From Azospira sp. I13 (GTDB lineage Bacteria; Pseudomonadota; Gammaproteobacteria; Burkholderiales; Rhodocyclaceae), in assembly GCF_003112695.1 (NCBI RefSeq), contig NZ_BFBP01000011.1, forward strand, positions 325,401 to 389,400: DNA of 64,000 nt, written 5' to 3'. The notes under the pieces were generated by a model. The model had not been told where the DNA came from. It saw nothing but the letters and a program-made list of their open reading frames with translations, and made no database searches. The first letter of the stretch is position 1. The number at the start of each line of letters is the position of its first letter. The position numbers and the translations under genes were made by a program. Shown piece by piece: positions 8,189 through 14,735 of the stretch.

Positions 8189-9499
8189 TTACTGCAGCTC
8201 TTCCAGACGCAGGCGGGTGACCTGGCCTTGCACGGCAGCCAGGGCCTCAATCTTGGCGATGGCGGCGTCGACGTTCTTTTCCCGGGTGACATGGGTCAGC
8301 AGGATGATGTCGGTCTGCACTTCGCCCTCGCCCGGCTCCTTCTGGATCATGGCGTCGATGGAGATGGACTGGTCGGCCAGGATGCGGGTGATGTCGGCCA
8401 GCACGCCGGGCTTGTCTTCCACCCGCAGGCGCAGGTAGTAGGCGGTCTGCACTTCGGCCAGGGGCAGGATCGGCAGGTCCACCACGGCGTCCGGCTGGAA
8501 GGCCAGGTGGGGCACCCGGTGTTCCGGATCGGAGGTGTGCAGGCGGGTGACATCCACCAGGTCGGCGATGACGGCGGAAGCGGTGGGCTCGGCACCGGCA
8601 CCCTTGCCGTAGTAGAGGGTGGCGCCGACGGCGTCGCCCTTCACCAGCACTGCGTTCATGGCGCCTTCCACGTTGGCGATGAGGCGCTTTTCCGGGATCA
8701 GAGTGGGATGCACGCGCAGTTCCACTCCTTCTGGGGTGCGCTTGGTCACGCCCAACAACTTGATGCGGTAGCCCAGCTGCTCGGCGTACTTGATGTCGAT
8801 GGCATCCAGCTTGGTGATGCCTTCCACGTGGGCCTTGTCGAAGCTCATGGGGATGCCGAAGGCGATGGCGGACATGATGGTCAGCTTGTGGGCTGCGTCC
8901 ACGCCTTCCACGTCGAAGGTGGGGTCGGCTTCGGCATAGCCCAGACGCTGGGCTTCCTTCAGCACGTCGGCAAAGGACAGGCCCTTGTCGCGCATCTCGG
9001 AGAGGATGAAGTTGGTGGTGCCGTTGATGATGCCGGCGACCCACTCGATGCGGTTGGCGGAGAGGCCTTCGCGCAGGGCCTTGATGATGGGGATACCACC
9101 GGCCACGGCGGCTTCGAAGGCGACGATGACGCCCTTCTTCTGGGCAGCGGCGAAGATTTCGTTGCCGTGGGTGGCCAGCAGGGCCTTGTTGGCGGTGACC
9201 ACGTGCTTGCCATTCTCGATGGCCTTCATGACCAGGTCCTTGGCCACGCCGTAGCCGCCGATCAGTTCGACGACGATGTCCACATTGGGATCGGTGACCA
9301 CGGCGAAGGCGTCGTCGGTGACCTTGCAGGCGCCGCCGGTGACCTGGCGGGCCAGGTCCAGATTACGATCGGCCACCATGGTAATTTCGATGGGACGGCC
9401 GGCCCGGCGGGTAATTTCTTCCGCATTACGTTTGAGGACGGTGAAGGTGCCGCCACCGACGGTACCGATGCCGAGCAGGCCGACGTTGATCGCTTTCAT
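8189..9499 (-). CDS. hom: Homoserine dehydrogenase
   Basis: Reduces aspartate semialdehyde to homoserine, the branch point to threonine and methionine. The 436-residue monofunctional enzyme has the NAD(P)-binding LLGIGTVGGGTF at its N-terminus, ITANKALLATHG-like VVTANKALLATHG, the catalytic-domain GIINGTTNFILSEM, and a C-terminal ACT domain (YYLRLRVEDKPGVLADITRI, about residues 350-436), so feedback control by threonine is likely. The ATG at 9499 is preceded by AGGGA. It appears to be the last gene of an alaC-alaA-hom run. Confidence 0.96.
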   Translation of the reverse strand: MKAINVGLLGIGTVGGGTFTVLKRNAEEITRRAGRPIEITMVADRNLDLARQVTGGACKVTDDAFAVVTDPNVDIVVELIGGYGVAKDLVMKAIENGKHVVTANKALLATHGNEIFAAAQKKGVIVAFEAAVAGGIPIIKALREGLSANRIEWVAGIINGTTNFILSEMRDKGLSFADVLKEAQRLGYAEADPTFDVEGVDAAHKLTIMSAIAFGIPMSFDKAHVEGITKLDAIDIKYAEQLGYRIKLLGVTKRTPEGVELRVHPTLIPEKRLIANVEGAMNAVLVKGDAVGATLYYGKGAGAEPTASAVIADLVDVTRLHTSDPEHRVPHLAFQPDAVVDLPILPLAEVQTAYYLRLRVEDKPGVLADITRILADQSISIDAMIQKEPGEGEVQTDIILLTHVTREKNVDAAIAKIEALAAVQGQVTRLRLEELQ

Positions 9500-9564
9500 A
9501 TGCAAGATCCCTAGTTGCTGAGTTAATTATCGTGGTTGGAAAAATCGGGGGTGGTCAGTTGCCA

Positions 9565-10791
9565 TCAAGTGCCATGGCGCTTGCGGTAACCGGCCAGGAA
9601 ACGGTCGATACGCCCGACGGCATCCTTGAGGTCGTCCACATGGGGCAGGAAGACCAGGCGGAAGTGATCCGGATCGGGCCAGTTGAAGCCGGTGCCCTGG
9701 ACCAGCAGCACCTTTTCTTCTTGCAGCAGTTCGGCAATGAACTGCTGGTCGTCCTGGATCGGGTAAACCTTGGGATCCAGGCGGGGGAACATGTACAGGG
9801 TGGCCTTGGGCTTGACGCAGGAGACCCCGGGAATGGAGGTGATCAGCTCGTGGGCGATGTCCCGCTGGCGGCGCATGCGACCGCCTTCAGAAACCAGGTC
9901 ATTGATGCTCTGGTAGCCGCCCAGAGCGGTCTGGATGGCCCACTGGCCGGGCACGTTTGCGCACAGACGCATGGAGGCCAGCATGTTGAGGCCTTCGATG
10001 TAGTCGGCGGCGGGGCGACGGTCGCCGGAAACCATCATCCAGCCGGCCCGGTAGCCACAGGAGCGATAGTTCTTGGAGAGGCCGTTGAAGCTGATGGTCA
10101 GCACGTCTTCCGAGAGGGAGCCGATGGCGGTGTGTTCAACGCCATCGTAAAGCACCTTGTCGTACACCTCGTCGGCGTAAATGATCAGATTGTTCTGACG
10201 GGCGATCTCGACGATTTCCTTGAGCAGGTCGTCGGGGTAGAGGGCGCCGGTGGGGTTGTTGGGGTTGATGATGACGATGGCCCGGGTGTTCTCGGTGATC
10301 TTGGCCCGGATGTCGTCCAGGTCAGGCAGCCAGCCGGCACCTTCGTCGCAGATATAGTGCCGCGGCGTGCCACCGGAAAGGCTGACGGCGGCGGTCCACA
10401 GGGGGTAGTCGGGAGCCGGCACCAGCACTTCGTCGCCCGGGTTGAGCAGGGCGTTCATGGCCATGACGATCAGTTCGGAAACGCCGTTGCCCACGTAGAT
10501 GTCTTCCAGGCCCACGCCCTTGACCTTCTTCTGCTGGGCGTAGTGCATGATGGCCTTGCGTGCCGCGAAGATGCCCTTGGAGTCGGAATAGCCCGCCGAA
10601 TTGGGCAGGTTGCGGATCATGTCCTGCTGGATTTCTTCCGGCGCGTCGAAGCCGAAGGAGGCCAGGTTGCCGATGTTGAGCTTGATGATCTTGTGGCCGT
10701 CCTCTTCCATCTGCTTGGCCTTTTCCAGCACGGGGCCGCGGATGTCGTAGCAGACGTTGTCGAGCTTGGCGGATTTCTTGATGGGTCGCAC
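9565..10791 (-). CDS. alaA: Alanine aminotransferase, AlaA (YfbQ) type
   Basis: Class I/II PLP aminotransferase that makes alanine from pyruvate and glutamate. The 408-residue sequence follows E. coli AlaA closely from memory: KLDNVCYDIRGPVL, VGNGVSELIVMAMNALL, VPAPDYPLWTAAVSLS, VIINPNNPTGA and NGLSKNYRSCGYRAGWM, with the Schiff-base lysine at Lys240. It starts at GTG (10791) with AGGA eight bases upstream; no ATG fits. It lies 65 bp upstream of hom and 70 bp downstream of alaC, in one strand and probably one transcript. Confidence 0.93.
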   Translation of the reverse strand: MRPIKKSAKLDNVCYDIRGPVLEKAKQMEEDGHKIIKLNIGNLASFGFDAPEEIQQDMIRNLPNSAGYSDSKGIFAARKAIMHYAQQKKVKGVGLEDIYVGNGVSELIVMAMNALLNPGDEVLVPAPDYPLWTAAVSLSGGTPRHYICDEGAGWLPDLDDIRAKITENTRAIVIINPNNPTGALYPDDLLKEIVEIARQNNLIIYADEVYDKVLYDGVEHTAIGSLSEDVLTISFNGLSKNYRSCGYRAGWMMVSGDRRPAADYIEGLNMLASMRLCANVPGQWAIQTALGGYQSINDLVSEGGRMRRQRDIAHELITSIPGVSCVKPKATLYMFPRLDPKVYPIQDDQQFIAELLQEEKVLLVQGTGFNWPDPDHFRLVFLPHVDDLKDAVGRIDRFLAGYRKRHGT

Positions 10792-12157: not shown

Positions 12158-12541
12158 ATGAAGCTCCATCGCGACAATACTGACGGCCATTACGCCTTTT
12201 CCGGCTATGGCGACGACTACGTGGCCATCAACGGCAACCGCCTGCAGGGCAATCTGGTGGTGCTGCCCCGGCGGCTGATCCGGGATTGGACCCAGGCCAC
12301 CTTCGAAACCCTGAGCCAGGCCGATTTCGATGCCCTGGCGGAGTTGGGGGTGGAGATCATGATTCTCGGCACCGGCGCCAGGCAGCGCTTCCCTCATCCC
12401 CAACTGCTGCAAGGCCTGATGCGGGCTGGTATCGGCCTGGAGGTGATGAATACCCAGGCTGCCTGCCGCACCTACAATATCCTCGCCGCCGAAGGCCGCA
12501 GTGTCGGCTGCGCCCTGTTGCAGGATTCGGTCACCCCGTGA
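12158..12541 (+). CDS. Mth938-like domain-containing protein
   Basis: A 127-residue protein of the MTH938/NDUFAF3 fold. Diagnostic stretches are [22 protein letters not shown] near the N-terminus, [17 protein letters not shown] (the conserved 'llGTG' turn) and the C-terminal [22 protein letters not shown]. In bacteria the family is widespread, but its biochemical role is not settled; the mitochondrial relative assists respiratory complex I assembly. It begins a plus-strand run and the next gene starts 7 bp after its stop. Confidence 0.88.
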
Positions 12542-12548
12542 GCCCTCT

Positions 12549-12923
12549 GTGAGCCCGATCGCCTTTGCCCTGATCCTCACCGGGGTCATTCTCAACGCCG
12601 CCGGCCAGTTGCTGCTCAAGGCCGGCACCAATGCCGTGGGCCATTTCGAATTCCACCTGGACAATGTCCTGCCCATCGGCCTCAAGCTGGCCTTCAATCC
12701 CTACATTCTCAGCGGCATGGCCGCCTATGGCGTCAGCCTGGTGGTGTGGATCATGGCCCTCTCCCGGGTACCGGTCTCCATCGCCTACCCCATGCTTTCC
12801 ATTGGCTACGTCATCAACGCCTTCATCGCCTGGCACTGGTTCGGCGAGGCCCTCTCCCTGGAGAAGCTGGCGGGCATCGGCCTGATCGTCCTGGGCGTTT
12901 ACGTCATCACCCGTACCGCCTGA
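12549..12923 (+). CDS. Small four-helix EamA/ArnE-F-like transporter
   Basis: A 124-residue integral membrane protein with four predicted helices. The segment [19 protein letters not shown] and the ending [13 protein letters not shown] resemble the ArnE/ArnF subunits that flip undecaprenyl-phosphate-aminoarabinose, and more broadly SMR/EamA half-size carriers. The only start that begins at the first helix is GTG at 12549; an ATG at 12501 overlaps the previous gene. The next gene is ArnD-like, which favours a lipid-linked sugar role, but no other arn gene is visible. Confidence 0.8.
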
Positions 12924-13223
12924 TCTCCTGCAAGTCAGTAGCGCGTCAGGAGAATCCCTTACAATGAAGGCTGTCCTCTCCTCCAAGCAGGACAGTTGTA
13001 CCTTGAACGCGCGCCGGCGTTTTTCGGGGGTGTTCGCCCGGTCGAATGTCGGAGCGCGTTATTTTTCCCGCGGCTTTGCTCCCGCCCTCCCGTTTCCCCT
13101 CCCCGCGCCCTCCGCACTCCCCTTCTCTCCCATTCCTGCCGGCCAGCCCCAGACGGCCCCCGCAAGACGCCGGATTGCTTTTACAATCCGCACCTCTCCG
13201 CTCTATCCAGGCATCTTTTCGCC
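12924..13223 (+). other. 300-bp intergenic region before the ArnD-like gene
   Basis: No convincing gene: the open frames here (for example 12964-13248) are Pro/Arg/Ser-rich and lack a ribosome site. Two TACAAT sequences (12960-12965 and 13182-13187) could be -10 elements. The second overlaps a perfect hairpin, CGGATTG-CTTTTA-CAATCCG at 13171-13190, which may be an operator. Confidence 0.4.
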
Positions 13224-14153
13224 ATGTCCAGCCCTCAACTCGCCCTGAAAATCAACGTCGACACCCTGCGCGGCACCCGCAGCGGCGTGCCCCGCCTGGT
13301 GGAACTGCTGCAAAAGCACGGCGCCCAGGCCACCTTCCTGTTCTCCCTCGGCCCTGACAATACCGGCAAGACGCCGCGGCAGCCGCGCCCGGCCGGTAGT
13401 CGGAAGAAAGGGAAATCCGCCAGCAAGCCCATCTCCCGGCGGGAGCGCTATGGTTTTACCAGCCTGCTCTACGGCACCTTCCTGCCGGCCCCGGACATCG
13501 GCCGGCGCTGCGCCCACATCCTCAAGGCCGTTCATGAGGCCGGATTCGAAACCGGCATCCAGAGCTGGGACCGGGCCGACTGGCAGTTGCGCATCGGCGA
13601 CGCCGCCAATGCCTGGGTGGAAGTGGAAATGGCCAAGGCAGCCAAACGCTACGAAGACATCCTCGGCCAGCGCCCCACCGTACATGGCGCCACCGGCTGG
13701 CTGATGAACCGCCACGCCCTGCGCCTGACCCAACGCCTCGGCCTGGCTTACGGCAGCGACACCCGGGGCACCGGCCCCTTCCTGCCGGTAGTGGAAGGCG
13801 AACTGGTGGCCTGCCCGCAGTTGCCCACCACCCTGCCCCCCCTGGATGAACTCATCGGCCAGGGCGACATTACCGCCGATAACGTGGCAGACCGCCTGCT
13901 CCTGGAGACCCGCAACCCGCCGGCCGCCGGCCACGTCTTCACCCTGCATGCGGAACTGGAAGGCATGAAGTTTCTGCCGGTTTTCGAAAAACTGCTGGAA
14001 GGATGGAAGGAACAGGGCTATGCCCTGGTGGCCTGCCGCCAGCTGGCCGCCGGCCTGGACCAGGATGCCCTGCCCCGCTGCCAGGTCCTGCGCAGCGATC
14101 TGCCGGAGCAGGCCGGACAGATGATCCAGGGGCCGGAGTTCCTCGCCGCCTGA
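13224..14153 (+). CDS. ArnD-like polysaccharide deacetylase family protein lacking the metal-binding His pair
   Basis: ArnD removes the formyl group from undecaprenyl-phosphate-4-formamido-arabinose in lipid A modification. This 309-residue protein aligns from KINVDTLRGTRSGVPRLVELL (keeping the catalytic Asp of the VDT motif) through FLFSLGPDNTGK, GATGWLMNRHAL and FTLHAELEGMKF (keeping the late His). The second metal motif, HAWDH in E. coli ArnD, reads QSWDR here (codons at about 13558-13572), so both histidine ligands are gone. A Lys/Arg/Pro-rich stretch replaces ArnD residues after GPDN. Start is the ATG at 13224. It may be a pseudoenzyme or a divergent enzyme with other ligands. Confidence 0.8.
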   Translation: MSSPQLALKINVDTLRGTRSGVPRLVELLQKHGAQATFLFSLGPDNTGKTPRQPRPAGSRKKGKSASKPISRRERYGFTSLLYGTFLPAPDIGRRCAHILKAVHEAGFETGIQSWDRADWQLRIGDAANAWVEVEMAKAAKRYEDILGQRPTVHGATGWLMNRHALRLTQRLGLAYGSDTRGTGPFLPVVEGELVACPQLPTTLPPLDELIGQGDITADNVADRLLLETRNPPAAGHVFTLHAELEGMKFLPVFEKLLEGWKEQGYALVACRQLAAGLDQDALPRCQVLRSDLPEQAGQMIQGPEFLAA

Positions 14154-14252
14154 GCCGCCCGGGCACAACCTGGCAGGCGCGGAAAGCCCGGCGGATTGTT
14201 GACCGCCGCCGGCCTTTCCCCCAACAATGGGGCATCAATCATGGAGAACAAC

Positions 14253-14735
14253 ATGAGCCCCAGCCCCCTTCCCCAAGCCATTCTTGATACCCCCGTCGCC
14301 GATTTCACCCTGCCGGCCACCGGCGACTCCCCCTTCACCCTCTCGGCCCAACGTGGCCAGCACATCGTCCTGTATTTCTACCCCAAGGACAGCACGCCCG
14401 GCTGCACCACCGAGGCCCAGCAGTTCCGCGACCTCTACCCGTCTTTCCAGGCCGCTGGCACGCGGGTGCTGGGGGTTTCCCGGGATTCCTTGCGCTCCCA
14501 CGACAATTTCCGCACCAAGCAGAACCTCCCGTTTGACCTCATTTCCGATGGCGAGGAAGTGCTGTGCCAGATGTTCGCTGTCATGAAGCTGAAGAAAATG
14601 TATGGCAAAGAAGTGCGTGGTATCGAACGCAGTACTTTTGTCATCGACAGTGCCGGCGTGCTGCGCAAGGAATGGCGCGGCATCAAGGTCCCCGGCCATG
14701 CCCAGGAAGTGCTCGAGTTCGTGCAGTCCCTTTAA
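14253..14735 (+). CDS. bcp: Thioredoxin-dependent peroxiredoxin, BCP/PrxQ type
   Basis: Reduces hydroperoxides. The 160-residue protein has the peroxidatic cysteine Cys51 in YPKDSTPGCTTEAQQF. Both usual resolving positions of PrxQ are missing: the +5 residue is Gln rather than Cys, and the alternative Cys of HDNFCAKQ-type proteins is Arg (HDNFRTKQ). Cys105 (EVLCQMF) remains but is not a known resolver, so it may work as a one-Cys enzyme. ATG at 14253 has GGAG six bases upstream, better than the in-frame ATG at 14241. It is followed 29 bp later by phoH. Confidence 0.9.
   Translation: MSPSPLPQAILDTPVADFTLPATGDSPFTLSAQRGQHIVLYFYPKDSTPGCTTEAQQFRDLYPSFQAAGTRVLGVSRDSLRSHDNFRTKQNLPFDLISDGEEVLCQMFAVMKLKKMYGKEVRGIERSTFVIDSAGVLRKEWRGIKVPGHAQEVLEFVQSL

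Follow-up and report, generated by a model that had tools for sequence, protein, structure and literature searches.

The gene at positions 13224 to 14153 (forward strand) of the window, by which we mean the whole 64,000-nucleotide stretch of DNA that was analysed, encodes a predicted ArnD-like pseudoenzyme of 309 residues plus a stop codon, as judged from its reading frame, alignment, family assignment and structural model. Two small genes precede it on the same strand: the first (12158 to 12541) encodes what we take to be an Mth938-like protein, and the second (12549 to 12923, assuming a GTG start) an SMR-type protein resembling ArnE/ArnF, which scores 69 bits against the ArnF model, below its cut-off of 99. 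Downstream lies a frequent neighbour of arnD, presumably the gene for a BCP-type peroxiredoxin (14241 to 14735, forward strand), and upstream, on the reverse strand, two genes that we take to be hom and alaC (8189 to 10791) form a conserved anchor of the locus. In relatives, including another Azospira genome (G081), the order at this site is Mth938, arnT, SMR, arnB, arnC, formyltransferase, dehydrogenase/decarboxylase and arnD (names that we presume from our knowledge of the sequences and of the family), often with bcp and phoH directly after arnD. Of this operon, the window and Azospira oryzae DSM 21223 retain at the site only Mth938, arnD and the other remaining arn gene, SMR. Between these two species the block of Mth938, SMR and arnD is strongly diverged (t of 0.65, 0.66 and 1.14), far more than its neighbours hom, alaC and the gene for a second aminotransferase (0.12 to 0.21), and local recombination or gene exchange is a possible cause. 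In A. oryzae (L113), unrelated genes stand in place of bcp-phoH downstream of arnD in the stretch compared. A search for phage defence with PADLOC gave no match.

Alignment with Salmonella ArnD (8t0j) and relatives identifies five active-site positions (11, 13, 113, 117 and 242), which read D/D/H/H/H in the relatives and N/D/Q/R/H in the window protein. Both metal histidines are replaced, as an earlier note on this DNA had stated, by Gln at codon 113 (CAG, 13560 to 13562; H113Q) and by Arg at codon 117 (CGG, 13572 to 13574; H117R), within GIQSWDRADW (residues 111 to 120). Additionally, codon 11 (AAC, 13254 to 13256) places Asn where 29 of 29 non-redundant relatives with an intact site have Asp, the putative catalytic base (D11N). 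The metal-site Asp at codon 13 (GAC, 13260 to 13262) is retained, and so is the His at codon 242 (CAT, 13947 to 13949), which only 4 of the 78 dead orphan copies described below have kept, most others having lost it. The same note had pointed to a VDTLRG-type start and a late HAELEG motif, and both are indeed there (LKINVDTLRGTRSG at residues 8 to 21 and TLHAELEG at 240 to 247); its HAWDH is one form of the usual metal motif, which in relatives is H(C/T/S/A)WDH. The motifs SDTRGTGPFLPV (residues 178 to 189; 13755 to 13790) and CPQLPTTLPPLDE (residues 197 to 209; 13812 to 13850) are retained in active and dead copies alike, and the insert at residues 50 to 80 (13371 to 13463), many of whose columns are near-invariant in active relatives, is degenerate in the window, with pLDDT below 50 at residues 54 to 65. 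All these features lie on the forward strand.

The N/Q/R triple also occurs in the ArnD of A. oryzae, which is 73% identical to that of the window; with an independent genome carrying all three changes, sequencing error is ruled out as their source. Among 112 loci (many genomes appearing twice), 106 read D/D/H/H/H, five N/D/Q/R/H (three of the window gene and two of A. oryzae) and one H/D/H/H/H, the last being on a metagenome contig where the frame contains a stop. G081, the third Azospira genome, has an intact active site and a full arn operon, and a plasmid search gave 118 records, all below 60% identity. The copies read later in the family and the order add no further N/D/Q/R/H set; Q113 and R117 recur in a few other orphans (e.g. 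L162, L215 and L210) together with additional changes, and other orphans lost the site differently, which is not the conserved QxxxR subfamily of Rhodocyclales that had been envisaged. We also considered a substitute pair of histidines in the metal site. The window protein has histidines at 32, 98, 104, 154, 164, 237 and 242; in the secondary structure of the model H98, H104 and H164 fall in helices and H32 after one, and H154 corresponds to Gly in A. oryzae, so that alignment and predicted secondary structure together suggest no candidate pair.

By sequence, the sole significant relative in the PDB is Salmonella ArnD, an undecaprenyl-phosphate-Ara4-formyl-N deformylase (8t0j, E 6.5e-45). The best NCBIfam family is NF011923 (192 bits, with a cut-off of 382), a cut-off that is uninformative as a test of membership, since four intact relatives also score below it (238 to 255 bits). 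An AlphaFold2 model (mean pLDDT 89.3) ranks 8t0j first (Z 35.0, rmsd 2.1 over 267 residues, 35% identity; the next row has Z 23.8), in agreement with the well-kept fold of the earlier note, and may inherit the fold of the relatives, because 46 of the 48 sequences in its input alignment were intact relatives (the others being one dead copy and the window protein). In the model the fold is thus of the NodB type and closest to ArnD. The window protein also shares with the Salmonella enzyme the DTLRG, GW, SDxRG, QxPxTLPTxDE and HAE(L/V)EG regions and, through its relatives, the same ancestral operon, but it has neither Asp 11, nor the metal His pair, nor the insert at 50 to 80, and no Ara4N enzymes were found in its genome. 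Of the features expected of an ArnD deformylase, the His of HAExEG (H242) is present, and the MT1 Asp pair (here N11 and D13), HxxxH (here Q113 and R117) and co-occurrence with ArnA, ArnB, ArnC and ArnT are not; those of a CE4/NodB pseudoenzyme, namely a NodB fold, missing metal and catalytic residues and a conserved gene, are all found. Judged by its residues, the protein is filed as an ArnD-derived pseudoenzyme and not as an ArnD deformylase, its inactivity being predicted.

The rest of the pathway was searched for genome-wide. In the window genome and in A. oryzae we did not find the ArnA-type dehydrogenase (E 1e-60), ArnT (1e-30), ArnC (1e-30) or ArnB (1e-60), and a formyltransferase query returned only relatives of 29 to 30% identity (29% in the window genome), which are probably Met-tRNA formyltransferases. 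The ArnE/ArnF-like SMR protein is retained in the window even though ArnT, ArnC and ArnA were not found. The earlier note had offered either a non-catalytic role or a different chemistry on a lipid-linked sugar, to be assayed with formamido-arabinose lipid; the former is favoured (residues gone, predicted fold kept, purifying selection), and chemistry on that lipid is unsupported, because the enzymes making it were not found in the genome. ArnD, the dehydrogenase and ArnT were searched throughout the family, and ArnB, ArnC and the formyltransferase in G081 and in the 40 family genomes that have ArnD and no dehydrogenase. In the other 38 of these, the best identities were at most 38% for the formyltransferase, 37% for ArnC and 40% for ArnB, and ArnT matches occurred only in G018 and G125, at 34 to 36%, where they are probably other glycosyltransferases.

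Across the family, the state of the active site follows the state of the operon. ArnD was detected in 128 of 297 genomes, and copies from 124 of them were read, giving 132 copies (the count excludes short or weak matches in G032 (L221, no ArnD match), G179 (L223), G197 and G203, as well as an additional piece in G170). Eighty-four copies lie near arn genes (including L024, whose dehydrogenase is 1.8 kb upstream), and 82 of these read D/D/H/H/H, the other two being cut by contig ends, with no loss seen. The remaining 48 are orphans, of which 46 are dead (one to five of the five residues lost) and two intact (L181 and L016). One residue is lost in one of the dead copies, two in 15, three in seven, four in 15 and all five in eight, and the resulting sites are varied (e.g. 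E/P/F/P/T, D/A/L/G/Q and H/G/S/R/R). Since two orphans of the family and two of the order are fully intact, and the orphan L219 has a single changed residue, the site is not lost at once. Only two genomes have the dehydrogenase and no ArnD (G032, where a contig ends inside arnD, and G085, an assembly of 1,240 contigs), so that, of the enzymes searched family-wide, ArnD is the one that stays. Yet in 171 of the 211 family genomes that lack the dehydrogenase, no more than weak matches to ArnD were found, and the dead protein is therefore dispensable over long times. Seven genomes (G105, G134, G170, G194, G229, G284 and G289) have, at the ancestral site, a dead copy and, elsewhere, one in an arn operon (the pairs L124/L125, L148/L130, L131/L144, L143/L138, L141/L187, L163/L164 and L129/L159; in G170 the operon copy is truncated by a contig end, and the four residues that can be read in it are intact). 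Where they are in the tree, these operon copies branch apart from the clade of the orphan, and the operon was possibly regained from outside.

The neighbours of the orphans offer no constant operon partner. What we take to be Mth938 adjoins 46 of the 48 family orphans, and the SMR gene is at just 12 of these loci, so it is not a general partner. Mth938 and bcp/phoH belong to the ancestral neighbourhood of the gene, and neither is found at the loci in families f5, f21 and f51. When bcp, phoH, Mth938, SMR, selD/selU-type and other genes (labels that we presume) were compared, none was common to all orphans read; the neighbour maps of L287, L288, L290 and L301 are incomplete, ArnD itself being absent from them.

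The pattern extends to the order, where ArnD was found in 209 of 399 genomes and the dehydrogenase in 166, with 44 genomes having only the former and one (G484) only the latter. Four of these 44 belong to the family and have dead copies; the other 40 were read, and 33 had lost residues, five were intact (for three of them the locus did contain a match to the dehydrogenase) and two were fragments. Beyond the family (f1), dead copies occur in eleven others (f5, f6, f13, f19, f21, f22, f24, f36, f38, f39 and f51), and in genus g80 full operons with intact sites, intact orphans and orphans with one to three losses coexist. In L268, L271, L273 and L275 the five residues are present and one in-frame stop is flagged in the aligned stretch. 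The order rows of a 186-row tree comprise 32 dead and two intact orphans, against 22 intact and no dead copies in genomes or loci with the dehydrogenase; part of the intact copies at this level were read, and other members of the order may have a dead copy next to a dehydrogenase. The whole tree (104 arn/intact, 78 orphan/dead, 4 orphan/intact and 0 arn/dead rows, omitting copies with an unreadable site and L257) needs 13 changes of the dead state, at least eight of them on starred (well-supported) branches. Removing the five catalytic columns and seven long rows gives a 179-row version with 11 changes, of which no fewer than eight are once more on starred branches, and a 107-row tree (omitting L093 and L159, copies of unclear context, and roughly two in three of L034 to L112) needs six, at least four on starred branches. 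The number of origins is approximate, because the trees were built quickly, their only branch support is SH-aLRT, some long branches come together, and gain and loss are not separable. In ten independent pairs differing in operon state, the site follows in seven to eight and never goes the opposite way (sign test, median p 0.0078 on both of the larger trees). One dead clade of 18 rows spans the genera g19, g31 and g52.

It could be that these orphans are decaying relics, with arnD as the functionless last gene of a collapsed operon, drifting to loss, and the disappearance of catalytic residues where the operon is lost, the many family genomes left without dehydrogenase or ArnD and the intermediate states inside g80 are all in keeping with this. 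Selection on the dead copies speaks against it. In a purpose-written pairwise codon model (GY94, F3x4), omega between the window and A. oryzae ArnD is 0.114 (2dlnL 113.4 in the comparison with omega 1), the values for nine other orphan pairs are 0.079 to 0.187, and omega 1 is rejected in ten of ten (smallest 2dlnL 41.8). Five active pairs give 0.021 to 0.078, and the window against G081 0.058, at long distance (the pair of A. oryzae and G081 has no finite ML distance and was left unused). By NG86 the window pair is at 0.42, the highest of all, the other usable orphan pairs at 0.125 to 0.357 and the active ones at 0.037 to 0.102 (two Mth938 control pairs took implausible values in this comparison); estimates above those of the codon model are expected with strong codon bias. 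Orphan ArnD is thus under purifying selection, relaxed relative to the active copies, and the relaxation speaks for decay. No internal stop was flagged in the listed orphan rows (a 32-residue contig-end piece of G032 was flagged), 28 columns are invariant across 33 diverged orphans, and the dead clade of 18 rows has reached three genera; the relic reading is already disfavoured, and we regard it as improbable. The SMR gene, compared between the window and A. oryzae, is also strongly constrained (omega 0.052).

What the dead copies keep was examined by columns, in 33 non-redundant family orphans (L160 also being excluded) and 29 non-redundant active copies. D11 is kept in 70% of the orphans, H113 in 55%, D13 in 45%, and H117 and H242 in 6% each, compared with 100% throughout in the active copies, and the 50 to 80 insert, many columns of which hardly vary among active copies, has been deleted or altered. 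This conserved insert is suspected to serve membrane association in ArnD. The invariant columns are P23, L25, L29, F38, G43, G107, W120, W159, R167, Q170, D179, G182, P185, P188, V189, E193, C197, Q199, P201, T203, L204, P205, E209, W261, G265, L283, Q302 and G303, and the pocket motifs SDxRGxxPFxP and CPQLPTTLPTxDE are largely retained. In orphans of other families both can mostly be read, with single changes (the first Cys is commonly replaced by Val or Leu), and L256 and L257 show them poorly. In the predicted secondary structure W159, D179 and R181 come after strands 153-155 and 176-178, at the end where the catalytic residues used to lie, an arrangement suggesting that the walls of the pocket persist in dead ArnD.

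With such a pocket, and with D13 and H242 also present in the window, the proteins might still be enzymes, performing an altered and perhaps metal-independent chemistry on another substrate. Arg is the commonest residue of dead copies at both 117 (38 of 78) and 242 (42 of 78), and changes from His to Arg at these positions are repeated on one reconstruction, much of this being inherited within large clades. The orphans have, however, no common set of replacements at 11, 13, 113, 117 and 242, and since a common chemistry should fix common residues, a shared new one is disfavoured; we find this reading slightly less credible than that of a relic. It is very unlikely that the frame is kept solely for other content of the DNA (a bcp-phoH promoter or an overlapping antisense gene), for although ArnD is directly upstream of bcp in many genomes (bcp is present in 27 of the 48 family orphan stretches) and a long antisense ORF overlaps the window gene, long antisense ORFs are ordinary in DNA so rich in G+C, the sole promoter-like site in 12880 to 14300 lies after the gene (14199 to 14228), A. 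oryzae and 17 of the 18 rows of the dead clade have ArnD without bcp in the stretch compared (a few of these stretches ending at contig ends), and selection acts on the amino acids.

We therefore consider it fairly likely that the ArnD orphans are a recurrent predicted pseudoenzyme, with a non-catalytic and probably ligand-binding role. According to this pseudoenzyme reading, the window arnD would be the remnant of an L-Ara4N (arn) operon from which the five arn genes between Mth938 and arnD, SMR excepted, were lost. ArnD would have, or readily acquire, a second and non-catalytic function, which would become its sole one after Ara4N production ends. Through the old pocket face the dead protein may bind a ligand, either small or lipid-linked, or else another protein, and so act in the cytosol as a sensor or scaffold without turnover. 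Binding through this face appears likeliest because W159, SDxRG, PF, CPQLPTTLPT and DE are best kept while the metal ligands and the insert are lost, and Arg at 117 and 242 may substitute for the charge of the missing metal. The role of the dead protein probably differs from that of the enzyme, because seven genomes hold both copies and the conserved insert is gone. A wider proposal, which we put forward tentatively and hold to be somewhat doubtful, is that ArnD in Betaproteobacteria is bifunctional, combining deformylation with a hidden binding function, and has repeatedly become a dedicated non-enzyme after Ara4N loss; the outcome would be a widespread family of pseudoenzymes, as yet unnamed, with the two pocket motifs as its hallmark.

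Dead proteins with a NodB fold are already known. E. cuniculi EcCDA (2vyo) is missing both metal histidines and the MT1 Asp (PMC10967932), and BA0330 and BA0331 are reported to have no deacetylase activity and nevertheless to contribute to cell shape and to adaptation to salt (PMC4505593); the PDB titles of BA3943 (7bkf, 6hpa and 6hm9) name a CE4 pseudoenzyme. All of them resemble the window protein in having a NodB fold without the catalytic activity or its residues, but they match it less closely than ArnD does, and BA0330 and BA0331 are, unlike it, lipoproteins. In the literature within reach of our search, outside which most subscription papers lie, we found no report of a dead orphan ArnD or of repeated loss of a NodB active site tied to the loss of a pathway; the accessible parts of PMC12748117 and PMC9765128 contain no dead orphan ArnD, the "arnd" of the latter being the name of an author.

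In the orphans, nature has repeatedly made a non-enzyme out of an enzyme, and because one genus contains intact, intermediate and dead sites, the order and the cost of losing catalysis become open to study. Throughout a large bacterial order, they point to a further function for a protein of lipid-A modification, and proteins annotated there as "ArnD" or "polysaccharide deacetylase" may be non-catalytic, which is relevant when the potential for polymyxin resistance is predicted from annotation.
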